Shown here: positions 48,535-64,000 of the stretch, one piece after another
Numbering within the stretch: position 1 is the stretch's first letter
Layout of the letters: each line of letters starts with the position of its first letter
NCBI GenBank assembly: GCA_022710975.1
Contig: JAKLGA010000007.1
Span: 1 to 64,000, forward strand
Source: Myxococcota bacterium
GTDB lineage: Bacteria; Myxococcota; B64-G9
DNA: 64,000 bases
Direction of reading: 5' to 3'
Program-made: the position numbers and the translations under genes
The notes under the pieces: generated by a model
Databases searched by the model: none
The model's input: only the letters and a program-made list of their open reading frames with translations
Told to the model about the DNA's origin: nothing

Positions 48535-50796
48535 TCACTTGGTCGGATCGAGCTCCAGGTTCAGGATGATGACATCGCCGGTCTCGAGGGTCACCTTGCG
48601 GCGCTGGGTGACGAAGCCGGGCATGGACACGAGCACGTCGAAGGTGCCGGTCCCCAGCTGCGCCTCGAACTTGCCGGTGCCCTTGTCCGCGCGGAGCTTC
48701 TTGTTGCGCGCCGGGATGGCGATGAGCGCCTGGAGCGGGGTGCCGGCCACCGTGCGCACCGTCCCGCGCAGCGTGCCGAAGGTCTTGCCCGTGGCCACCT
48801 GGAGGCGGATGGTGACCGGCGTCTCCGGGGCGTCGGCCACCAGGACGACCTGGCTGTCCTCCTGGTAGCCGTCGCGCAGCACGCGCAGCTTGACCGGGCC
48901 CGGCGCCATCGGGCAGGTGGCGAAGCCGCCCTGCTCCGAATCGGACAGGAAGGTGATCGGGTCGCGGCTGCCCACCACGATGCGCGCGCCGCCCAGCGGC
49001 TCGCCCGTGGCCGCGTCCAGCACCTGGCCCCGCACCCGGCCCGCGCCGGGCGCCGCGCAGGGTTGCGCCGCGCCCACGTCCTGGGGCACCGGGACCTGCA
49101 CCTCCCGCACGACCACCCTGGTGACCTCGTGCACCTCGACCCGCGTCTGCTCCGCGCCGAAGTCCCAGGCCAGCGACAGGTGCAGCTCGTAGGGCGGGAT
49201 GCGGCCCTTGCCGGCCGGGGCGTCCACACCCAGCAGGCCGATGTCCGCCGAGGCCACCAGGTGCAGGTCGTGGCGCAGGAGCGGCCAGGCGCGCAGGCCC
49301 AGGGTCATCCACATGGGGCTGTCGGTGAAGCCCGGCGCGCCGCCACCCACCGCCGGGGTCATGACCAGCTCCAGGAAGGGCGCCACCGGGCCGAAGGTGT
49401 AGGCCAGGCCCAGGGAGGCGAGCACCTGATCGTGGGGGTTGACGCTCGCGGCGAAGCGCTGCGCCTCGGTCAGCGCGTGCGAGAAGATGAACCGGGTGTT
49501 GTCGAAGAGGTAGCCCACGTTCAGCGCGATCAGCAGCTCCGGCAGCGGCCGCAGATCGAAGGCGGCCAGGATGCGCGTGCTGATGCCCTCGGTGGACAGG
49601 GTGGTGAAGCCCGCGCCCCCGGTCGGGAACTGCACCTGCACGCCCAGGCCCAGCCCGAACATGTCGACCACCTGGTAGCCGTAGCGCACGCCCAGGTGGG
49701 GATCGCCCACCGTCAGGTTCGCGCTCGGGCTGAAGGCGTCGTTCTGGCTGCTGACCGCGCCCAGCCCGCCGAAGAGCTCGAGGCCCTGGACCGGCACGCC
49801 CGACAGGGTCAGACGGCCGACCAGGCGCTGCTGGGTGTCTCCATCGACGAGGAAATCCGGGCTGTAGAAGTAGCCGAGGGATGCCCCGACCAGCACCGAC
49901 CCGGCGGCCGCAGGCACGGCCGTCCAGGTGTGCTGCAGGCCCCAGGGGCCGAGCAGGGACGGTCCGGCCGGGTCCACGCCCGGCTCGGGCGGGGGTTGCA
50001 CGCGGACCTTCACCTCCCCTGGCGGTTGCTCCCCGGGCTCGGGCCTGGCCGCCCCGGGGTCGACCGGGGTCTCAGCGGGCTGTTCGGCTGGCACCTCGGC
50101 TGGCTTCTCGGCTGGCTTCTCGGCTGGCTTCTCGGCTGGCTTCTCGGCTGGCTTCTCGGCTGGCTTCTCGACGGGCTTCTCGGCTGGCTTCTCGACGGGC
50201 TTGTCGACCGGCTTCTCCGCCGGCTTCTCCGCCGGCTTCTCCGCCGGCTTCATCACCGGCTCGGGCAAGGCCGCCACGGCCGGCTTCGGCTCCTCGGGAG
50301 GTGGAGGCGGCTCCGCGGGCTTGGCAGGCTCGACCGGGGCAGGCGCCGGCGGGCGGGCCCGCCAGGCCACCACGGCCTCATCCTTCATGGGTTTGCGCTT
50401 GACCGGCAGCAGGCGCAGGGCCGCCTCGCCGCGGACCTGGATGCCCACCTCGTGGGCGCCCTTGGGCACGTTCACGAAGAAGCCGCGCGAGATGCGGGCG
50501 TCCGTCTTGAGCCGCACCTGCCCGACCTGGCCCTCGTCGAGCTCGAGTTCGAAGACCACCTCCCCGCGCGCCTCCGTGCGCACCAGCACCACCACCCCCT
50601 GCGGCCCTCTGGCCTGGAACCGCAGCCAGCCGTCCTTGGCCAGCACCAGGTAATCGGCGTTCTTGCCCCCGTCCTTGAGCTTCTTGGTGGGGTAGCTCCC
50701 CAGGGGCTTGACCTGGGCGAGCGCCACCCCCGACGGCAGCGCCAGGCAGAGACCGAGCGCAAGGCAAGCGATCCGGGCGGCGGCGCGAGCGCGCAT
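48535..50796 (-). CDS. Large exported beta-barrel protein with Pro/Lys/Glu linker and carboxypeptidase-regulatory-like end
   Basis: About 753 residues. A signal peptide is followed by a globular N-domain (to about 145). Then comes a roughly 100-residue rigid linker made of PAEKPAEKP repeats (TonB-like, probably extending through the periplasm or cell wall), and a barrel-like middle of alternating strands (about 290-540). The C-terminal region includes two beta-sandwich modules (RVRGQVLDAATGEPLGGARI, TLRGTVRTVAGTPLQALI), which are CarboxypepD_reg-like. ATG 50796 has AGAGGAG at ideal spacing. ATG 50811 overlaps the upstream stop (ATGA) and is the alternative. Confidence 0.8.
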   Translation of the reverse strand: MRARAAARIACLALGLCLALPSGVALAQVKPLGSYPTKKLKDGGKNADYLVLAKDGWLRFQARGPQGVVVLVRTEARGEVVFELELDEGQVGQVRLKTDARISRGFFVNVPKGAHEVGIQVRGEAALRLLPVKRKPMKDEAVVAWRARPPAPAPVEPAKPAEPPPPPEEPKPAVAALPEPVMKPAEKPAEKPAEKPVDKPVEKPAEKPVEKPAEKPAEKPAEKPAEKPAEKPAEVPAEQPAETPVDPGAARPEPGEQPPGEVKVRVQPPPEPGVDPAGPSLLGPWGLQHTWTAVPAAAGSVLVGASLGYFYSPDFLVDGDTQQRLVGRLTLSGVPVQGLELFGGLGAVSSQNDAFSPSANLTVGDPHLGVRYGYQVVDMFGLGLGVQVQFPTGGAGFTTLSTEGISTRILAAFDLRPLPELLIALNVGYLFDNTRFIFSHALTEAQRFAASVNPHDQVLASLGLAYTFGPVAPFLELVMTPAVGGGAPGFTDSPMWMTLGLRAWPLLRHDLHLVASADIGLLGVDAPAGKGRIPPYELHLSLAWDFGAEQTRVEVHEVTRVVVREVQVPVPQDVGAAQPCAAPGAGRVRGQVLDAATGEPLGGARIVVGSRDPITFLSDSEQGGFATCPMAPGPVKLRVLRDGYQEDSQVVLVADAPETPVTIRLQVATGKTFGTLRGTVRTVAGTPLQALIAIPARNKKLRADKGTGKFEAQLGTGTFDVLVSMPGFVTQRRKVTLETGDVIILNLELDPTK
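50087..50255 (-). repeat. 12-bp tandem repeats encoding PAEK
   Basis: Short tandem units (TGGCTTCTCGGC on the plus strand) are repeated many times, several exactly, at 50100-50170, with variants at both sides. They encode the PAEK linker. Copy number is likely to vary between strains. Confidence 0.85.
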
Positions 50797-52644: not shown

Positions 52645-52674
52645 TTGACCGGGCCGGACGCTGGCACCTAACAT
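52645..52674 (+). promoter_or_regulatory. Candidate promoter of the giant lipoprotein gene
   Basis: TTGACC (52645-52650, 5/6), 18-base spacer, TAACAT (52669-52674, 4/6), in the divergent region, about 85 bases before the ATG. Confidence 0.35.
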
Positions 52675-52758: not shown

Positions 52759-55700
52759 ATGGATACGGGTCGCCTGGTCTCCCGGTTCGCCTGGGCTGCC
52801 ACCCTCGCCGCGGTCCTTTCCTCTGCGGGCTGTGGGCGGGAAGGTTACGACCCGGCCGCCCCGACCCCCTGCGATGGCATACTCTGCTCGGGGCATGGCA
52901 CCTGCGCCGATCTGGACGGGGCACCCTACTGCGTGTGCGACGACGGGTACTACGCCGATGGGCTCGAATGCCTGGAGCTCATCGTGGACAACCCCTGCGC
53001 GGGCATCACCTGCTCGGGGTATGGCGTGTGCGCCGTGCGCGGCGGAGAGGCGGTCTGCGTGTGCGCCCAGGGCTACCACAACCCGGCCGACGATCGAGCC
53101 AATTGCGTGCCCGACACCCATCCGTGCGACGGCGAGGACGGCAGTCCGTGCGACGACACCGAGTTCTGCACTGTTGACGACATCTGCGTGCAGGGCCTGT
53201 GCCGCGGCCAACCCAACGACTGCTCGGACGGCAACTCTTGCACCGTGGACATCTGCAACGAGCTCGAGGATCGCTGCGTGGGTACGGCCGCTCCGGATCT
53301 GACGCCCTGCGACGATGGACGCTACTGCACGCTGGGCGAGGTGTGCCAGGCCGGCCTTTGTGCCCAGGGCTACGAGCGCAACTGCGAGGACGGCAACTCG
53401 TGCACCGACGACCGCTGCGACGTCGACACGGACAGCTGCGTGAACGAGCCGGCGAACGACGGCTCGGCCTGCGACGACGGCGCGTTCTGCTCCGAGGGTG
53501 AGACCTGCCTGGCCGGCGCGTGCGCCGCAGGCCAGCCGCGGAACTGCGACGACGGGAACCTGTGCACCCTGGACATCTGCGACGAGAGCCTCAACGAGTG
53601 CCTGCACGAGAGCGGGCCCAACGAGGGCCAGCCTTGCGACGACGGAAGCTTCTGCACCATGGAGGATCGCTGCGCATCGGGCATCTGCGCAGGCGGCGGC
53701 CAGCGCAACTGCAGCGACGGGAACAGCTGCACCCTGGACTCCTGCGACGAGGTCCAGGACAGCTGCGTCTCCGACGCCTCGGCCTCCGACGGCGTACCGT
53801 GCAACGACAGCGCCTTCTGCACCATCGACGACACCTGCAGCGGCGGCGTCTGCCAGGGCGGCAGCCCGCGCGACTGCGACGACGGCAACCTGTGCACGCT
53901 CGACATGTGCGACGAGGTGCTGGACACCTGCGTGGGCAACGGCATGGCGGTCGACGGCGCGCCCTGCGACGACGGCCTGTACTGCAACACGGGGGAGGTG
54001 TGCACGGCCGGCTTCTGCGCGGGCGGTGCGCCGCGCGGCTGCGAGGACGCCAGCGACTGCACCTTCGACACCTGCGACGAGAACGCAGACACCTGCCTGC
54101 ACGACGAGGGGCTGGCCGAAGGCAGGCCGTGCGACGACGGTGATTTCTGCAGCCTGGGCGAGACCTGCCTGGCGGGCGCGTGCCAGGGCGGTGTACCCAA
54201 CCCCTGCGACGACGGAGATCCTTGCACCGCCGACGCCTGCGACCAGCTCGCGGGCGCTTGCACGCACGACCCGGCCGGGGCCAACGGGACCGCCTGCGAC
54301 GACGGCTCCTACTGCACCGTGGCCGACGCCTGTCAGGACGGCGTGTGCCTGGGCGGCAGCCCGCGGGAGTGCGGCGATCCGAACCCCTGCACCGTGGACG
54401 CCTGCAACGAGATCAGCGACCAGTGCACCCACGCAGCCGTCGTGGATGGCACGGTCTGCGACGACGGCCTGTACTGCAACACGGGCGAGACCTGCACCTC
54501 CGGCTTCTGCACCGGCGGGGGCCAGCGCCCCTGCTCGGACGGGCTCACCTGCACCCTGGACGCCTGCGACGAGCTGGCCGACACCTGCACCCACGACAGC
54601 GCGGCGGCCGACGGCCTGACCTGCAGCGACGGCCAGTTCTGCACGCAGGGCGAGTCCTGCCTCGGCGGCGCCTGCCAAGGCGGTGCACCCAACCCCTGCG
54701 GCGACGGGAACGTCTGCACCGTGGACACTTGCGACGAGGGCACGGACGCATGCCAGCACGACGGCCCGGGGGCCAACGGCCTGGGCTGCGACGACAACGC
54801 ATACTGCACCGTGAGCGACGCCTGCCAGGACGGTGTGTGCGCAGGCGGCGCCCCGCGGGTATGCTCGGACGGGAACTCTTGCACCCAGGACTCCTGCGAC
54901 GAGGTCCAGGACACCTGCACCACCGACGCCGCCCCCATGAACGGCGCGCCCTGCGACGACGGCGCGTTCTGCAGCACGGGCGAGACCTGCAGCGCGGGCG
55001 CCTGCACCGGCGGCACGCCGCGCACCTGCTCGGACGGCAACCCCTGCACCCAGGACGCCTGCGACGAGCTCGCCGATGCCTGCTCCAACAACCCGGCCCC
55101 GGCCAACGGCCTGGCCTGTGACGACGGCCAGTTCTGTACCCTGAACGAGACCTGCCTCGGCGGCGCCTGCCAGGGCGGCGCGCCCAACCTGTGCGCCGAC
55201 GGGAACACGTGCTCCGTGGACACGTGCGACGAGGGCACGAACCAGTGCCTGCACGACGGCCCGGCCGCCAACGGACTGGCCTGCGACGACGCGGCGTACT
55301 GCACCCAGGGCGAGGCTTGCCTGAACGGGGCGTGCGTGGGCGGGACCCCGCGGGTGTGCACGGACGGCAATCCCTGCACCCAGGACTCCTGCGACGAGGC
55401 CCAGGACACCTGCGCGGCCGTGGCCGCGCCCATGAACGGCGCGCCCTGCGAGGACGGCGCCTTCTGCAGCACGGGCGAGACCTGCAGCGCGGGCGCCTGC
55501 GTGGGCGGCACGCTGCGCTCCTGCTCGGACGGCAACGCCTGCACCCTGGACTCCTGCGACGAGACCAACGACGCCTGCCTGAATGACGCGCTGGCGGCCA
55601 ACGGGCTCACCTGCAACGACAGCCAGTTCTGCACCGTGGGCGAGACCTGTCTGGGCGGCGCCTGCCAGGGCGGCTCGCCCAACCTGTGCAGCGACGGGAA

Positions 55701-58700
55701 CACGTGCTCCGTGGACACGTGCGACGAGGGCACGAACCAGTGCCTGCACGACGGCCCGGCCGCCAACGGACTGGCCTGCGACGACGCGGCGTACTGCACC
55801 CAGGGCGAGGCTTGCCTGAACGGGGCGTGCGTGGGCGGGACCCCGCGGGTGTGCACGGACGGCAACCCCTGCACCCAGGACTCCTGCGACGAGGTCCAGG
55901 ACACCTGCGCGGCCGTGGCCGCGCCCATGAACGGCGCGCCCTGCGAGGACGGCGCCTTCTGCAGCACGGGCGAGACCTGCAGCGCGGGCTCCTGCACCGG
56001 CGGCGCGCTGCGCTCCTGCTCGGACGGCAACGCCTGCACCCTGGACTCCTGCGACGAGACCAACAACGCCTGTCTGAACGACTCGCTGGCGGCCAACGGG
56101 CTCACCTGCAACGACGGACTGTTCTGCAGCACGGGCGAGACCTGCCTCGGCGGCGCCTGCCAGGGCGGCGCCCCCAACCTGTGCAGCGACGGGAACACCT
56201 GCACCGTGGACTCGTGCAACGAGGGCACAGACGCGTGCCTGCACGACGGCCCGGCCGCCAACGGCCTGGCCTGTGACGACAACGCCTACTGCTCCCTGGG
56301 CGAGTCTTGCCTGAACGGCGCTTGCCAGGGCGGCGTCGCGCGGGTGTGCTCGGACGGCAACCCCTGCACCCAGGACTCCTGCGACGAGGTCCAGGACACC
56401 TGCACCGCCGTGGCCGCGCCCATGAACGGCGCACCCTGCGACGACGGGATGTACTGCAGCACGGGCGAGACCTGCAGCGCGGGCGCCTGCACCGGCGGCA
56501 GCCCGCGCTCCTGCTCGGACGCCAGCCCCTGCACCCTGGACTCCTGCGACGAGGCCACCGACGCCTGCATCAACGACGCGGTCGGGGCCAACGGCGTGGC
56601 CTGCGACGACGGGCAATTCTGCACCCAGGGCGAGACCTGCAGCGCGGGCGCGTGCACCAACGGCACGCCCAACCCGTGCACGGATGGCAACGTGTGCACC
56701 GCCGACTCCTGCGACGAGGGCGCGAACCAGTGCCTGCACAACGGCCCGGCCGCCGACGGCCTGGGCTGTGACGACAACGCCTACTGCACCGTGAGCGACG
56801 CCTGCCAGAACGGCGTCTGCACAGGCGGCGCCGCCCGGGTGTGCACGGACGGCAACCCCTGCACCCAGGACTCCTGCGACGAGGTCCAGGACACCTGCGT
56901 CGGCAGCGCCGCGCCGATGAACGGCGCGCCCTGCGACGACGGGGCCTACTGCAGCACGGGCGAGACCTGCAGCGCGGGCTCCTGCACCGGCGGCTCGCCG
57001 CGCACCTGCTCGGATGGCAACGGCTGCAGCGTGGACTCCTGCGACGAGGCCTCCGACGCCTGCATCAACAACGCCGCGGCGGCCAATGGCCTGGCCTGCG
57101 ACGACGGGGCCTTCTGCACCCAGGGCGAGACCTGCAGCGCGGGCGCGTGCACCAACGGCACGCCCAACCTGTGCACGGATGGCAACGTGTGCACCGCCGA
57201 CTCCTGCGACGAGGGTACGAACCAGTGCCTGCACAACGGCCCGGCCGCCAACGGCCTGGCCTGCAACGACAACGCCTACTGCACCGTGGGCGAGGCCTGC
57301 TCGAACGGCGCCTGCGCGGGCGGCTCCCCGCGCGACTGCGACGACAGCAACGCCTGCACGCTCGACACCTGCGACGAGGTGCTCGACTCCTGCGTGGGCA
57401 ACGGCGCGCCCATGAACGGCTCGATCTGCAACGACGGCCTGTACTGCAACACGGGTGAGACCTGCGCGGCCGGCATCTGCGCGGGCGGCATCCCCCGCCT
57501 GTGCAACGACGCCAACACCTGCACCGCGGACTCGTGCAGCGAGGCCACCGACGCGTGCGTGTACGACGGGCCAGCCGCCGACGGCCTCGGCTGCAACGAC
57601 GGTCTGTTCTGCACCCTGGGCGAGACCTGCCTGAGCGGCGCCTGCCAGGGCGGCTCGGCCAACCCCTGCAACGACGGCAACGTGTGCACCGCGGACTCCT
57701 GCGACACGCTGCTGGACACCTGCGAGCACGACGGCCCGGCCGCCGACGGGCTCGGCTGCGACGACGGTGCCTACTGCACCATCAACGACGCCTGCACCTC
57801 CGGCACCTGCGTGGGCGGCGTGCCGCTCGACTGCGCGGACGCGAACGCCTGCACGGCGGACTCCTGCAACGAGGTCACCAACCAGTGCGTCCACCCGGTC
57901 GTGGCCGACGGCACCGCCTGCAACGACGGCGCGTACTGCAGCGTGGGCGAGACCTGCACCGCCGGGGCGTGCAGCGGCTCGAGCCCGCGCGCCTGCTCGG
58001 ACGGCAACCCGTGCACCGTGGATTCCTGCAACGAAGCCGGGGACGTGTGCGTGAACGACGCGGCCGCCGCCAACGGCCAGGTCTGCGACGACGGCGCCTT
58101 CTGCGTGACGGGCGAGAGCTGCCTCAACGGCGCCTGCGCCGGCGGCGCTCCGCGCAACTGCTCGGACCTCGTGCTCTGCACCGCGGATGTGTGCAACGAG
58201 GCCACGGACACCTGCGACCACGACGGCTCGGTGATGAACGGCACGGCCTGCGACGACGGCAACTTCTGCCTGGTGAACGAGACCTGCACCAACGGCGCCT
58301 GCGGCAACGGCACCGTGCGGGCCTGCGACGACGGCAACTCGTGCACGGCCAACAACTGCAACGAGGCGCTGGACGCCTGCCAGAACCCGGGCCTGGCCAA
58401 CGGCTCGGCCTGCGAGGACGGCCTGTTCTGCACCCTGGGCGACACCTGCCAGGGCGGGCTGTGCGCGGGCGGGCCGAGCGACCCCTGCCTCGCCGACGTG
58501 TGCGCCAACTTCTGCGACGAGGGCACGGACAGCTGCGGCGGCTGCTCGCCGGCGGGCACCTACTGCGCGAGCTCCACGCAGGCCGCGACCTGCGACGGGG
58601 CCTGCCACATGACCTCGCTGACCATCTGCCCCTACGAGTGCAACGCCACCCGCCAGGAGTGCAACGAGTGCGAGCCGTCCGTGGCCGAGTGCAAGGGCAA

Positions 58701-60405
58701 CGCGGAGCTCCTGTGCAACGCGGACCACGCCTGCAGCGCGGACGGCCTGCTGACCTCGATCACCTGCTGCACCACGAACCGCTGCACCTGCGACAAGGCA
58801 GAGTGCCTCGAGGACCAGTGCCTGACGGCCGCGGACCTGTCGGCCGGCGGCACCGTGGCGGGCACCACCTGCACGGAGTCCGACCACATCCCCGGCGACT
58901 GCAACCCGGGCGGCACGGCCTGCCAGCTCCCGGCCGGGGGCGGGGCGCCCGAGGCTATGTTCCACCTCGACCTCGACGACGGCCTGGGCACCTCGCGTTT
59001 CTACAACATCAGCCTGAACACCTCGGGCTCGGCCCTGGACACGTTCCTGCGGCTGTCGTCGGTGTGCGGCAACGAGAGCCAGCAGCTGGCCTACGCCGGG
59101 GTGTGCAACACCCCGACGCCGGGGGTGAGCCCGGCCACGGCGTGCACCTCCGGGGCCGGGCCGGACAGCGCGCTGCTGTGCGGCATGCCCGAGGGCGAGT
59201 ACTTCGGCGCGGTGGACGGCCCGGCCAGCACCTGTGGCACCTACACGCTGACCGCCGTGGTCACCGCGGTCAGCCTGGACCTCGCCTCCCAGGCGGGCAA
59301 CGTGAGCCGGGGCGGCACCTTCACTGGCACGACCTGCGGCCTGGCCGACAACTACAAGTTCCCGGACACCCAGCTGTGGGACGGCGCGGTGTGCGGCGAC
59401 TGCACCGCCCTGGCGGGCAACGCGCTGTGCCCGCTGTGCGACAGCGCCGCGGCCGCGGACTGCACGGTCAACAGCACCGAGGACAAGTGCGCCTACTCGG
59501 GCCTGGGCAGTCCGGACGCAGTGTTCTACCTGGCCCTGGCGATGGATTCGGGCGTGGACATCACCACCGACGGCTCCAACTTCGACACGGTCATCTACCT
59601 CATGCAGACCGGGCCCACCGGACCCAACCCTCCGGGGATCAACCGGGTGTGCAACGACGACTGCAAGGAGGTCGACGGCGCCTCCCACATCCAGACGTCG
59701 TTGCCGGCCGGGCTGTACTACCTGTACCTAGACGGCGCGAACGGGGCGTGCGGCAACTACGTGATGCGGGTGGTGGTCTCGCCGGCGGCCACTTGCGGCA
59801 ACCTGGTGTGCGAGAGCCCGTACGAGAGCTGCTCGAGCTGCCCGGGCGACTGCACCTGCCCGCACTGCGGCGACGGGACCATCCAGGAGTACGAGGGGGA
59901 GACGTGCGACGACGGGGACACGCAGTCCGGCGACTGCTGCGCCTCGAGCTGCTGGATCGAGGCCGGCTGCGCCTGCTACGGCGAACCGTCCACCTGCGGC
60001 GTCCCCACCCCACGCAGCTACAGCCACACCTGCGCTTGCGCCATCCCGGACTCGGGCAACACCCCTCCGGGCACGGCGCTGAACGACACGGTCAGCGTGC
60101 CGGTGGCTTGCGTCGTGGCCGGGATCACCGTGGACGTGAACATCACCCACACCTACAAGAGCGACCTGGTGGTCACGCTCCGCAGCCCCACGGGCACGGT
60201 GGTCACGCTCCACAACCGCACCGGCGGCGGCGACGACAACATCGTGGGGACCTACGAGACCACCCTGTTCACGGACGGCCCGGGCGAGCTGGAGGACTTC
60301 CTCGGGCTCGCCGGCCAGGGCACCTGGACGCTCACCGCGCAGGACTGGTTCAAGGGGGACGCCGGCACTCTCAACAGCTGGGGCATTCACCTGCAGTGCC
60401 TGTAG
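52759..60405 (+). CDS. Giant lipoprotein: EGF-like head, about 33 CTDC-type Cys repeats, P-domain tail
   Basis: 2548 residues. Lipobox SAGC (Cys near residue 25) is followed by two EGF-like modules (CSGHGTCADLDGAPYCVCDDGYY and CSGYGVCAV...CVCAQGYH). From about residue 125 to 1925 there are about 33 units of 54-55 residues of the form NGxxCDDGxFCxxGETCxxGxCxGGxPRxCSDGNxCTxDSCDExxDxC, which resemble the Dictyostelium CTDC repeat. Next come a different Cys-rich stretch and two pre-peptidase C-terminal-like beta domains (about 2030-2170 and 2175-2345). The protein ends in a proprotein-convertase P-type domain (NTPPGTALNDTVSVP...TWTLTAQDWFKGDAGTLNSWGI). P domains usually accompany proteases, but none is present here. 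It should be a long, disulfide-rich surface fibre. The role is unknown. Confidence 0.88.
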   Translation: MDTGRLVSRFAWAATLAAVLSSAGCGREGYDPAAPTPCDGILCSGHGTCADLDGAPYCVCDDGYYADGLECLELIVDNPCAGITCSGYGVCAVRGGEAVCVCAQGYHNPADDRANCVPDTHPCDGEDGSPCDDTEFCTVDDICVQGLCRGQPNDCSDGNSCTVDICNELEDRCVGTAAPDLTPCDDGRYCTLGEVCQAGLCAQGYERNCEDGNSCTDDRCDVDTDSCVNEPANDGSACDDGAFCSEGETCLAGACAAGQPRNCDDGNLCTLDICDESLNECLHESGPNEGQPCDDGSFCTMEDRCASGICAGGGQRNCSDGNSCTLDSCDEVQDSCVSDASASDGVPCNDSAFCTIDDTCSGGVCQGGSPRDCDDGNLCTLDMCDEVLDTCVGNGMAVDGAPCDDGLYCNTGEVCTAGFCAGGAPRGCEDASDCTFDTCDENADTCLHDEGLAEGRPCDDGDFCSLGETCLAGACQGGVPNPCDDGDPCTADACDQLAGACTHDPAGANGTACDDGSYCTVADACQDGVCLGGSPRECGDPNPCTVDACNEISDQCTHAAVVDGTVCDDGLYCNTGETCTSGFCTGGGQRPCSDGLTCTLDACDELADTCTHDSAAADGLTCSDGQFCTQGESCLGGACQGGAPNPCGDGNVCTVDTCDEGTDACQHDGPGANGLGCDDNAYCTVSDACQDGVCAGGAPRVCSDGNSCTQDSCDEVQDTCTTDAAPMNGAPCDDGAFCSTGETCSAGACTGGTPRTCSDGNPCTQDACDELADACSNNPAPANGLACDDGQFCTLNETCLGGACQGGAPNLCADGNTCSVDTCDEGTNQCLHDGPAANGLACDDAAYCTQGEACLNGACVGGTPRVCTDGNPCTQDSCDEAQDTCAAVAAPMNGAPCEDGAFCSTGETCSAGACVGGTLRSCSDGNACTLDSCDETNDACLNDALAANGLTCNDSQFCTVGETCLGGACQGGSPNLCSDGNTCSVDTCDEGTNQCLHDGPAANGLACDDAAYCTQGEACLNGACVGGTPRVCTDGNPCTQDSCDEVQDTCAAVAAPMNGAPCEDGAFCSTGETCSAGSCTGGALRSCSDGNACTLDSCDETNNACLNDSLAANGLTCNDGLFCSTGETCLGGACQGGAPNLCSDGNTCTVDSCNEGTDACLHDGPAANGLACDDNAYCSLGESCLNGACQGGVARVCSDGNPCTQDSCDEVQDTCTAVAAPMNGAPCDDGMYCSTGETCSAGACTGGSPRSCSDASPCTLDSCDEATDACINDAVGANGVACDDGQFCTQGETCSAGACTNGTPNPCTDGNVCTADSCDEGANQCLHNGPAADGLGCDDNAYCTVSDACQNGVCTGGAARVCTDGNPCTQDSCDEVQDTCVGSAAPMNGAPCDDGAYCSTGETCSAGSCTGGSPRTCSDGNGCSVDSCDEASDACINNAAAANGLACDDGAFCTQGETCSAGACTNGTPNLCTDGNVCTADSCDEGTNQCLHNGPAANGLACNDNAYCTVGEACSNGACAGGSPRDCDDSNACTLDTCDEVLDSCVGNGAPMNGSICNDGLYCNTGETCAAGICAGGIPRLCNDANTCTADSCSEATDACVYDGPAADGLGCNDGLFCTLGETCLSGACQGGSANPCNDGNVCTADSCDTLLDTCEHDGPAADGLGCDDGAYCTINDACTSGTCVGGVPLDCADANACTADSCNEVTNQCVHPVVADGTACNDGAYCSVGETCTAGACSGSSPRACSDGNPCTVDSCNEAGDVCVNDAAAANGQVCDDGAFCVTGESCLNGACAGGAPRNCSDLVLCTADVCNEATDTCDHDGSVMNGTACDDGNFCLVNETCTNGACGNGTVRACDDGNSCTANNCNEALDACQNPGLANGSACEDGLFCTLGDTCQGGLCAGGPSDPCLADVCANFCDEGTDSCGGCSPAGTYCASSTQAATCDGACHMTSLTICPYECNATRQECNECEPSVAECKGNAELLCNADHACSADGLLTSITCCTTNRCTCDKAECLEDQCLTAADLSAGGTVAGTTCTESDHIPGDCNPGGTACQLPAGGGAPEAMFHLDLDDGLGTSRFYNISLNTSGSALDTFLRLSSVCGNESQQLAYAGVCNTPTPGVSPATACTSGAGPDSALLCGMPEGEYFGAVDGPASTCGTYTLTAVVTAVSLDLASQAGNVSRGGTFTGTTCGLADNYKFPDTQLWDGAVCGDCTALAGNALCPLCDSAAAADCTVNSTEDKCAYSGLGSPDAVFYLALAMDSGVDITTDGSNFDTVIYLMQTGPTGPNPPGINRVCNDDCKEVDGASHIQTSLPAGLYYLYLDGANGACGNYVMRVVVSPAATCGNLVCESPYESCSSCPGDCTCPHCGDGTIQEYEGETCDDGDTQSGDCCASSCWIEAGCACYGEPSTCGVPTPRSYSHTCACAIPDSGNTPPGTALNDTVSVPVACVVAGITVDVNITHTYKSDLVVTLRSPTGTVVTLHNRTGGGDDNIVGTYETTLFTDGPGELEDFLGLAGQGTWTLTAQDWFKGDAGTLNSWGIHLQCL
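53140..58495 (+). repeat. Array of about 33 Cys-rich 162-165-bp repeats with trimeric higher-order period
   Basis: Units of 54-55 codons tile this span. From the 5th to the 28th unit the unit types alternate as A-B-C. A ends VAAPMNG, B has CSTGETCSAG or YCNTGE, and C has CLGGACQGGxPN and ends GPAANG. This gives a 495-bp higher-order unit repeated about eight times. Confidence 0.85.
55201..56190 (+). repeat. Two near-identical 495-bp higher-order units in tandem
   Basis: Bases 55201-55695 and 55696-56190 are almost identical. They differ at scattered positions such as the ACG/GCG and valine/alanine codon changes near 55400 and 55890. This is a recent duplication or gene-conversion product within the array. 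Confidence 0.85.
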
Positions 60406-60525
60406 CCAGCGCTCCCACCCCTGCGTTGACGCCAGGCCAGAATTCCGTCCAAGCTAGGAACAGCGGCCCGCGCGGTCGCCCATACCGGGGCCACCGTCCG
60501 GACACTCGCCGAAAGCGAGGATCCC

Positions 60526-63500
60526 ATGACCGGTCTGCGTTCCACGATCGTCTGCCTGGCCCTGGGCCTGGGTGGAGCGGCGATCCTGCAGGCGGGCTGC
60601 GGCCGGGAAGGCTACAACCCGGTCGAGAGCGATGCCTGCCGGGGGGTGACCTGCTCCGACCACGGCTCGTGCGCGGACCTGGCCGGCACGCCCGTCTGCC
60701 TATGCGACGAGGGCTACTACGCCGAGGGGCTCACCTGCCTGGAGTACGTGGTGGAGAACCCCTGCGCGGGCGTCACCTGCTCGGGGTACGGGATCTGCGC
60801 GGTGCGCAACGGCGCGGCCATGTGCGTCTGCGCCCAGGGCTACCACACCCCGCCGGATGACCGGGCCAACTGCGTGCCCGACATCGCCGTGTGCGAAGGG
60901 GAAGACGGCAGCCCGTGCGACGACGGCGAGTTCTGCACGGTGAACGACACCTGCACCGCGGGCCTGTGCGTCGGCCAGGAGCAGGCCTGTGACGACGGCA
61001 ACTCGTGCACCGTCGACCTGTGCAACGAGATCGACGACCTCTGCATCAACACCCCCAAGGCGGACGACACGCCCTGCGACGACGGCGCCTACTGCACGCT
61101 CGGGGAGCGCTGCCTGGCCACGCAGTGCGTGGGCGGCCAGCCCCGCAACTGCTCCGACGGCAACGCCTGCACCGGGGACGTGTGCGACGAGGACGCGGAC
61201 GCCTGCGGCAGCTCGGCCCTGCCCGACGGCACGGCCTGCGAGGACGGGGCCTACTGCACCGAGGGCGACACCTGCCTGGCGGGCAGCTGCGCCGGCGGTG
61301 CGATGCGCGGCTGCGACGACCTGAACCCGTGCTCGAGCGACGTGTGCAACGAGGCCATCGACAGCTGCGAGAACCCGCCGGTGGTGGACGGCACGCCCTG
61401 CGAGGACGGCCAGTTCTGCACCACCGGCGACGTGTGCTCGGGCGGCGGCTGCCAGGGCGGCGGGGCGCGGGACTGCTCCGACGGCGACCAGTGCAGCGCG
61501 GACGCCTGCGACGACGACGCCGACCAGTGCGCGCACGTGCCGGTCCCGGACGGCACGGTCTGCACCGACGGACGCTTCTGCACCCTGGGCGAGAGCTGCA
61601 CGGGCGGCGTGTGCGGTGGCGGCCTGGCGCGCGACTGCCAGGACGGCAACCCGTGCACCGCCGACCAGTGCAACGACGCCACCTCCACCTGCGACCACCC
61701 GCGCGAGCAGGATGGCCTGCCCTGCGACGACGGGCAGTACTGCACCCTGGCGACCCAGTGCCAGGCCGGCGTGTGCAGCGGCGGCTCCTTCGTCGACTGC
61801 AGCGACGCCCTCGACTGCACCCTGGACTCCTGCGACGAGCAGGCGAACGCCTGCGCCAACGACGCCGCCGCCCTGGACGGCGCCGGCTGCGACGATGGCG
61901 AGTTCTGCACCGTCGCCGACACCTGCAACGCCGGCACCTGCGGCGGGAGCCTCAACCCGTGCGACGACAGCAACCCCTGCACGCTGGACGCCTGCGACGC
62001 GCTGGCCGGCGCCTGCACCCACACCCCGGCGGCGGACGGCGAGGCCTGCGACGATGGCCTGTTCTGCACGGTCGGGGACGCGTGCGGCGCGGGCGCCTGC
62101 ACCGGCGCGGCCCGCGACTGCGGGGACGCCAGCGTGTGCACGGCCGACTCCTGCAACGAGGTCAGCGACGCCTGCGTGAACACGGCCGTGGCGAACGGGA
62201 CCGCCTGCGACGACGGCCAGTTCTGCAACGTGGGCGAGGCCTGCGTGGGCGGCGTGTGTGGCGGCGGGCTGGCCCGCAACTGCTCGGACGGCAACCAGTG
62301 CACCGCCGACTCGTGCGACGAGGGCGCGGACGCGTGCGCGAACGCGGACCTGCCCGATCTCAACCCCTGCGACGACGGCATGTACTGCACCCTGGGCGAG
62401 ACCTGCACGGCGGGCGCCTGCGGGGGCGGCGCCGCGCGGAACTGCTCGGACGGCAACGCCTGCACCCAGGACGTGTGCAACGAGATGTCCGACAGCTGCG
62501 ACCACCCGGCGGTGACCGAGGGCACCCCGTGCGACGACGGGGAGTACTGCACCCTGGCCGACGCCTGCGCCGGCGGGACCTGCACCGGCGGCGCGGCCCG
62601 GGATTGCTCGGACGGCAACGCCTGCACCAACGACGTGTGCGACGAGGTCGGGAACGGGTGCGTCTCGACGGCGGTGGCGAACGGCACGAGCTGCAGCGAC
62701 GGCCAGTTCTGCACCCTGGGCGAGACCTGCACGAGCGGCGTGTGCGGCGGCGGCGTGGCGCGCTCGTGCGCGGACGGGAACGCTTGCACCGCGGACTCCT
62801 GCAATGACGTGAGCGACGCCTGCGTCAACACGCCCGTGGCGAACGGCACTGCCTGCGACGACGGCGCCTACTGCACCCAGGGCGAGACCTGCCAGGCCGG
62901 CGCGTGCGGCAACTCCAGCAGCCGCAACTGCTCGGACGGCAACGGCTGCACCCTCGACTTCTGCGACGAGTCGGGCGACGTCTGCGCCCACGAGGGCGCG
63001 GCCATGGACGGCACGCCCTGCAACGACGGCCTGTTCTGCACCAGCGACGACGCCTGCCTGTCGGGCGCGTGCACCGGCGGCGGCGCCAGGAACTGCTCGG
63101 ACGGCGTTGCCTGCACCGTCGACAGCTGCGACGAGGTGGGCAACGCCTGCCTCCACGACGCGGCGGCCGCCAACGGCGCGGCCTGCAACGACGGCCTGTT
63201 CTGCACGCTGAACGACGCCTGCAGCAACGGCGCCTGCGCCGGCGGCGGGGCCCGGGGGTGCAGCGACGGCAACGCCTGCACCGTGGACTCGTGCGACGAC
63301 ACCAACGACGTGTGCGTCAACAACGCGGCCGCGGCCAACGGCCAGGTCTGCGACGACGGGCTCTTCTGCAACACCGGCGAGACCTGCTCGGGCGGGGTGT
63401 GCGCCGGCGGCGCTGCGCGCGTCTGCGCCGACGCCAACCAGTGCACCGCAGACTCGTGCAGCGAGGCCACCGACGCTTGCGTGTACAGCGCTCCGGCGGC

Positions 63501-64000
63501 CAACGGCCTGGCCTGCAACGACACGCTCTTCTGCAACACCGGCGAGACCTGTCTGAACGGCGCCTGCCAGGGCGGCGCGGCCAACACCTGCAGCGACGGC
63601 AACGTGTGCACCGTGGACTCGTGCAACGAGGCCGGCGACACGTGCGTCAACAACGCCGCCGCGGCCAACGGCACCGCCTGCAGCGACGGGCTGTACTGCA
63701 CCACGGGCGAGGTGTGCACGGCCGGCGCCTGCGGCGGCGGCCTGGCGCGGAACTGCGCCGACGCCGACCCCTGCACCAACGACACCTGCAACGAGGGCAC
63801 CGACACCTGCGCCCACGCCGCGGTCGCCAACGGCACCGCCTGCGACGACGGGGCCTGGTGCAACATCGGCGAGACCTGCACCGGTGGGGTGTGCGGCGGC
63901 GGGGTGGCGCGCACCTGCTCGGACGGCAACCAGTGCACCAGCGACAGCTGCAACGACGCCACCGACGCCTGCGTCAACACGTCCGTGGCCAACGGCACGC
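60526..64000 (+). CDS. Second giant EGF/CTDC-repeat lipoprotein, 3' end outside the window
   Basis: The frame opens at ATG 60526 and has no stop before the right edge, so at least 1158 residues. Lipobox QAGC (Cys near residue 25) is followed by CGREGYNP, which matches CGREGYDP of the preceding protein, then the same two EGF-like modules and at least 19 CTDC-type units. The two genes are tandem paralogues with a 120-base gap. The C-terminal domains lie beyond the window. Unit order is less regular than in the first protein, so the trimeric period is not obvious. Confidence 0.88.
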   Translation, partial: MTGLRSTIVCLALGLGGAAILQAGCGREGYNPVESDACRGVTCSDHGSCADLAGTPVCLCDEGYYAEGLTCLEYVVENPCAGVTCSGYGICAVRNGAAMCVCAQGYHTPPDDRANCVPDIAVCEGEDGSPCDDGEFCTVNDTCTAGLCVGQEQACDDGNSCTVDLCNEIDDLCINTPKADDTPCDDGAYCTLGERCLATQCVGGQPRNCSDGNACTGDVCDEDADACGSSALPDGTACEDGAYCTEGDTCLAGSCAGGAMRGCDDLNPCSSDVCNEAIDSCENPPVVDGTPCEDGQFCTTGDVCSGGGCQGGGARDCSDGDQCSADACDDDADQCAHVPVPDGTVCTDGRFCTLGESCTGGVCGGGLARDCQDGNPCTADQCNDATSTCDHPREQDGLPCDDGQYCTLATQCQAGVCSGGSFVDCSDALDCTLDSCDEQANACANDAAALDGAGCDDGEFCTVADTCNAGTCGGSLNPCDDSNPCTLDACDALAGACTHTPAADGEACDDGLFCTVGDACGAGACTGAARDCGDASVCTADSCNEVSDACVNTAVANGTACDDGQFCNVGEACVGGVCGGGLARNCSDGNQCTADSCDEGADACANADLPDLNPCDDGMYCTLGETCTAGACGGGAARNCSDGNACTQDVCNEMSDSCDHPAVTEGTPCDDGEYCTLADACAGGTCTGGAARDCSDGNACTNDVCDEVGNGCVSTAVANGTSCSDGQFCTLGETCTSGVCGGGVARSCADGNACTADSCNDVSDACVNTPVANGTACDDGAYCTQGETCQAGACGNSSSRNCSDGNGCTLDFCDESGDVCAHEGAAMDGTPCNDGLFCTSDDACLSGACTGGGARNCSDGVACTVDSCDEVGNACLHDAAAANGAACNDGLFCTLNDACSNGACAGGGARGCSDGNACTVDSCDDTNDVCVNNAAAANGQVCDDGLFCNTGETCSGGVCAGGAARVCADANQCTADSCSEATDACVYSAPAANGLACNDTLFCNTGETCLNGACQGGAANTCSDGNVCTVDSCNEAGDTCVNNAAAANGTACSDGLYCTTGEVCTAGACGGGLARNCADADPCTNDTCNEGTDTCAHAAVANGTACDDGAWCNIGETCTGGVCGGGVARTCSDGNQCTSDSCNDATDACVNTSVANGT

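Follow-up and report, generated by a model that had tools for sequence, protein, structure and literature searches.

Two adjacent giant proteins of an uncultured myxobacterium, here called P1 and P2, can be read as outer-surface lipoproteins composed of an anchor, a stalk and a ligand-binding head, in which the number of repeat units in the stalk would set the reach. We give this reading a probability of about 60%. The two genes are tandem open reading frames with 120 bp between them (ORF list and sequence) in our window, i.e., the whole stretch of 64,000 nucleotides that was analyzed. P1 (52759..60405, plus strand) encodes a predicted lipoprotein of 2548 aa in an open frame with a GC3 of 0.95, has GAGGTG 5' of its ATG, and has homologues in other MAGs. 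P2 lies on the same strand, and the window contains the first 1158 of its 1933 aa (60526..64000), since the gene continues beyond it to contig position 66327. There are two promoter-like sites between 52400 and 60600, where 0.1 would be expected; one of them, upstream of P1, is a sigma-70-like promoter match on the plus strand (52645..52674), by consensus only. The parts of both proteins follow the same order: a lipobox Cys, two EGF-like modules, an array of Cys-rich units, a region that is Cys-rich, PPC-like and matched by TIGR02232, and a proprotein-convertase P-domain.

Both proteins start with a predicted signal peptide (P1, 52759..52833; P2, 60526..60600; plus strand) in which a hydrophobic stretch precedes a lipobox-like motif, SSAG-C in P1 and LQAG-C in P2. 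The Cys is residue 25 in each and is immediately followed by GREGY[DN]P, as described in the original prediction, which had identified adjacent paralogues sharing the lipobox start CGREGY[DN]P. The elements expected of a bacterial lipoprotein (signal peptide, lipobox and Cys) are found at the sequence level, with an atypical position -3, where S (P1) or Q (P2) stands and the classical residue is absent. Lipobox-like N-termini also occur in the relatives from three other genomes (G003, G005 and G024), and the Cys is retained wherever the N-terminus of an orthologue is present. In the mechanism we propose, the signal peptide would be cut at the lipobox, the Cys would be lipidated, and the two EGF-like modules that come next would adjoin the membrane (P1, 52870..53109; P2, 60637..60876; plus strand). 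These modules, also recognized previously, match PF07974 in P1 (E=9.3e-9, in two stretches); in P2 they are placed at the same residues by the aligned N-terminal heads, and the first module matches hEGF (E=0.0078). Similar EGF modules are present elsewhere in the genome (L036:1974-3596, G000:C7:61429-61902, and G000:C12:325888-326502).

The array comprises 33 units in P1 (53149..58539) and 22 in P2 (60916..64000 and beyond the window, both on the plus strand). The unit, detected by PF00526 and repeat analysis, has ~55 residues and 8 Cys, in two four-Cys halves: CDDGxFCTxGExCxxGxCxGG and CxDGNxCTxDxC[DN]ExxDxC. The second half resembles the CTDC motif (PF00526), which bears out the earlier comparison of these 55-residue repeats with those of Dictyostelium. 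Against the Pfam cut-off of 27 bits, P2 scores 52.1 (E=5.5e-14), and P1 scores 31.6 for one repeat in the genome search and 23.7 for the whole protein. The number of Cys in the arrays is exactly 264 in P1 (33x8) and 176 in P2 (22x8), and the composition is 16% acidic and less than 2% basic. In a 90-row alignment of three units, all Cys columns but one, as well as most of the conserved Asp, are invariant. The conserved Asp near the Cys of each half-unit suggests calcium binding, which may stiffen the array.

AF2 predicted that three consecutive units fold into small beta hairpins strung one after another (mean pLDDT 93.9, pTM 0.58), a confident outcome for a check that had been proposed with the original prediction; the pTM is as expected for an elongated chain. 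The profile searches proposed along with it brought matches to PF00526, to PF01483 and, for the P-domain, to PDB 3hjr/3wqb, and no solved structure for the unit: neither its sequence nor the 90-row profile matched the PDB at E up to 1, and the three-unit model had no match in a viral structure library. The best Foldseek match of this model in the PDB, the heavy chain of the Entamoeba Gal/GalNAc lectin, is not significant (E=5e-3, TM 0.18) and serves as no more than a lead. We propose that the 33 or 22 acidic units, each with its own disulfides, would form an extended stalk. Tandem EGF modules span a few nanometres per unit; if one unit of the array does the same, the reach of P1 could be estimated at ~100 nm or more.

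Units 10-25 of P1 are copies of a three-unit block, with an identity of 67% at lag 3 vs 53% at lags 1 and 2; this period is absent from the P2 array. The DNA identity of block pairs is up to 99%, and the array contains an exact repeat of 174 bp. Unit number, and the reach with it, may be altered by recombination between repeats. Another tandem repeat of the window, at 50084-50251, has 14 copies of the 12-bp unit TCGGCTGGCTTC. An exact repeat of 174 bp could mislead the short-read assembly as to the exact unit count of P1, and the locus might reflect mis-assembled repeat copies or a spurious frame. We regard this as highly improbable: both frames, whose breakage by assembly error had been named as a possible refutation, are open and coding-biased, and the same layout of N-terminal head, array and tail is found in independent MAGs. 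P1 and P2 are not due to chance, because adjacent units have a mean protein identity of 53-55%, the codon bias of the plus frame is strong across both genes (GC3 of 0.95-0.98 vs a GC1 of ~0.60), and their tails have homologues in other MAGs.

The repeat is widespread in this genome and phylum. Of the 193 genomes that represent the phylum in our sample, 142 contain PF00526, which is absent from all 14 controls, and the nine members of the family hosting P1 and P2 are the richest in it among the sampled genomes. In the genome under study, at least 28 ORFs exceed the Pfam cut-off (150 of 416 candidates scored), and ~40 ORFs match the profile of the 55-residue unit in a survey over genome stretches. 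The pair is therefore less singular than it looked, and the term "unusual" used previously does not hold. For comparison, 11 proteins of D. discoideum are listed under Dicty_CTDC, and this one genome has more CTDC proteins than the published dictyostelid counts (PMC4931340). In the literature that we searched on CTDC repeats in bacteria, we found no paper on proteins of the P1/P2 type. The heads found at the far end of the array in the paralogues include subtilase, trypsin, FG-GAP, TSP3 and LTD. One 3368-aa ORF (L089:1589-11692, G000:C29, minus strand) has a subtilase S8 domain, 35 units and a MYXO-CTERM-like anchor, and may be a surface protease whose stalk would be similar in length to that of P1. 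Another (L024:3547-7983, G000:C8) has a trypsin-like protease, 12 units and a MYXO-CTERM-like end.

The position of the array relative to the anchor follows a simple rule. Among 58 anchored array proteins, with anchors classed by regular expressions rather than trained predictors and proteins with both anchors excluded, the array comes after the N-terminal lipobox in 32 of 34 and before the C-terminal MYXO-CTERM-like anchor in 22 of 24. Within the genome of P1 and P2, the midpoint of the array is N-terminal of the protein's middle in 14 of the 16 lipobox proteins and C-terminal of it in all 13 MYXO-CTERM-like ones (Fisher p=1.8e-6, where the paralogues are related and not independent observations). 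In the other genomes, sampled by best match and including two complete relatives of P1/P2 (three among the loci read), the array is on the side of the anchor in 18/18 lipobox and 9/11 MYXO-CTERM-like proteins (p=5.5e-6, with the same dependence). As for the exceptions, the array is at the far end in two lipobox proteins, L027 and L070, the latter also having a MYXO-CTERM-like stretch near its C-terminus; in the other genomes, L108 is by eye not a true MYXO-CTERM protein and the call for L120 is doubtful. The array of L097 takes up almost the entire protein. The locus of L027 (G000:C29:221000-230500) harbors Cys-rich ORFs side by side, with at most 17 units each; among them, the lipobox member is the one that breaks the rule. 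Since the array sits on the side of the anchor and the varied heads are opposite, its simplest reading is a stalk between the membrane and the head. L027 and L070 count against the stalk-and-head reading, as do the atypical position -3 of the lipobox and a P-domain that comes without a protease.

Surface exposure is not the default for lipoproteins, and P1 and P2 might instead be periplasmic structures, located under the outer membrane and spanning or propping the periplasm. This seems quite unlikely to us, because 33 disulfide units, if extended, would by our estimate be much longer than the periplasm, and because this array is also carried by MYXO-CTERM-like proteins, which belong to a class sorted to the cell surface by myxosortase (PMC11980579). 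The MYXO-CTERM anchor is apparently used by paralogues of the same genome with an array of the P1/P2 type. P1 and P2 differ from them by their N-terminal lipobox, and the order of their parts is reversed. The original description of a lipid-anchored, disulfide-rich, extended protein with eukaryote-like modules is supported by the lipobox-like Cys of the orthologues, the 8-Cys unit, the AF2 model and the anchor-side placement of the array.

Beyond the array, both proteins have a tail of ~620 residues (in P1, 621 aa at 58540..60402, plus strand, delimited by the alignment of six relatives), which in our proposal would be the distal head. It includes a Cys-rich stretch, PPC-like motifs (P1, 59545..59733, plus strand), a TIGR02232 myxo_disulf_rpt (P1, 59863..59976, plus strand) and a P-domain (P1, 60121..60390, plus strand). 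The pre-peptidase-like domain announced previously stands as a resemblance of motifs and fails as a domain assignment, with Pfam E-values for PPC below threshold (0.08-0.11; 0.11 for PF04151 in P1). TIGR02232, above its curated cut-off (E=2.1e-6), had been missed; over the same stretch of P1, our profile A3 matches Pappalysin-2. The P-domain (PF01483) is C-terminal in both proteins (P1, E=1.6e-19; P2, E=3.3e-15). It had been correctly seen in P1 and wrongly taken as an addition of the first gene, because the edge of the window cuts P2. The AF2 model of the tail, built from five rows, is poor (pLDDT 47), and the fold of the head is therefore drawn from the sequence.

P-domains are chiefly known from their association with a protease domain. 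The profile of the P1 P-domain matches an extracellular serine protease of bacteria (PDB 3hjr/3wqb) in its C-terminal part, and in such proteases the P-domain is C-terminal, as in P1 and P2. Unlike them, P1 and P2 have no Subtilase or other protease domain in Pfam scans, as had been stated; of the two components of a convertase-like protease, they have the P-domain alone. One might imagine the head as a docking platform that brings secreted proteases, or exoenzymes of other kinds, to the cell surface to form a cell-bound digestion station. P-domains do work beside subtilase domains in the known proteases matched here, and the genome encodes, aside from the subtilase on 35 units, many further P-domain matches. 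On the other hand, judging by gene calls alone, neither the locus nor the surroundings of the relatives' copies, where the flanks look different, contain a conserved partner gene, and we consider the docking platform unlikely.

The relatives in other genomes inform on what is conserved. Among 97 genomes searched, strong relatives of the tail were found in only four others: G001, G003 and G005, which represent three further genera of this family, and G024, which belongs to another family. The tail is 47-66% identical to the proteins of other MAGs, and its matches with named records are uncultured Deltaproteobacteria MAGs. The pair recurs in G005 alone, which has a tandem like P1/P2 plus a lone third copy whose N-terminal head contains one EGF module. 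The number of units ranges from 9 to 33 across the relatives, some copies of which end at contig ends, and the N-terminal head and tail are retained, except for a different N-terminal head in G024.

The array makes up ~60-70% of each protein, and PF00526 is the domain found in the matrix proteins of Dictyostelium (PMC4931340, PMC9117722). These facts would fit a role as matrix material, in which the array itself would be the functional part, an acidic cross-linked sheath round the cells, as with EcmA and EcmB. Yet the distal tail is kept (mean column identity of 55% in the alignment of the six relatives) when unit number varies, and the arrays of the paralogues adjoin the anchor and carry enzymes, so we hold the matrix role, like the docking platform, to be improbable. 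The comparison with the Dictyostelium CTDC proteins involved in matrix and signalling (EcmA, EcmB, PsiA, PsiF; PF00526) also reveals differences: their repeat of 24 residues and four Cys corresponds to one half of the P1/P2 unit, whereas in P1 and P2, which are bacterial, two kinds of half-units alternate to make an 8-Cys unit and are accompanied by a predicted lipid anchor, EGF modules and a P-domain.

The stalk-and-head reading has its closest precedent in TraA of Myxococcus xanthus, a surface receptor whose Cys-rich repeats were proposed to hold its PA14 head as a rigid stalk (PMC3325183). In TraA, as in P1 and P2, the head is carried by a Cys-rich repeat region that adjoins the membrane anchor. 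P1 and P2 differ by an N-terminal anchor, a C-terminal head and a different type of repeat, with as many as 33 units. They are not TraA homologues: Pfam scans found no PA14, no TIGR04201 was identified among NCBIfam families in the whole proteins or in three units (E up to 10), and the C-terminal MYXO-CTERM anchor is absent, both proteins ending in the P-domain. Because of the analogy with TraA, a binding role is the most likely, and P1 and P2 are probably adhesins or receptors presenting a P-domain head, which would bind a ligand such as another cell, the matrix or an exoprotein. Contact or adhesion, as originally suggested, is the best functional reading that we can infer. The "new type" of fibre was too strong a claim given the ~40 proteins of the genome, the phylum-wide half-unit and the precedent of TraA. 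Overall, the original observation is partly confirmed and its interpretation partly supported. The repeat and the logic of stalk and head were already known; what is new is their combination, with a polarity opposite to that of TraA, and a rule by which many relatives can be organized.

If this reading is right, it provides a rule for dozens of unannotated Cys-rich giants in Myxococcota, whose function should be sought beyond the stalk, at the end opposite the anchor. A bacterial phylum would then make wide use of a repeat familiar from social amoebae and their matrix. More tentatively, and with slightly less than even odds in our view, Myxococcota may have a single 8-Cys stalk cassette, interchangeable and 2 to 35 units long, combined with a lipobox or a MYXO-CTERM anchor and with many heads, that would hold much of the surface proteome at different heights. 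P1 and P2 would be its lipobox and P-domain version, with stalks among the longest of the genome.
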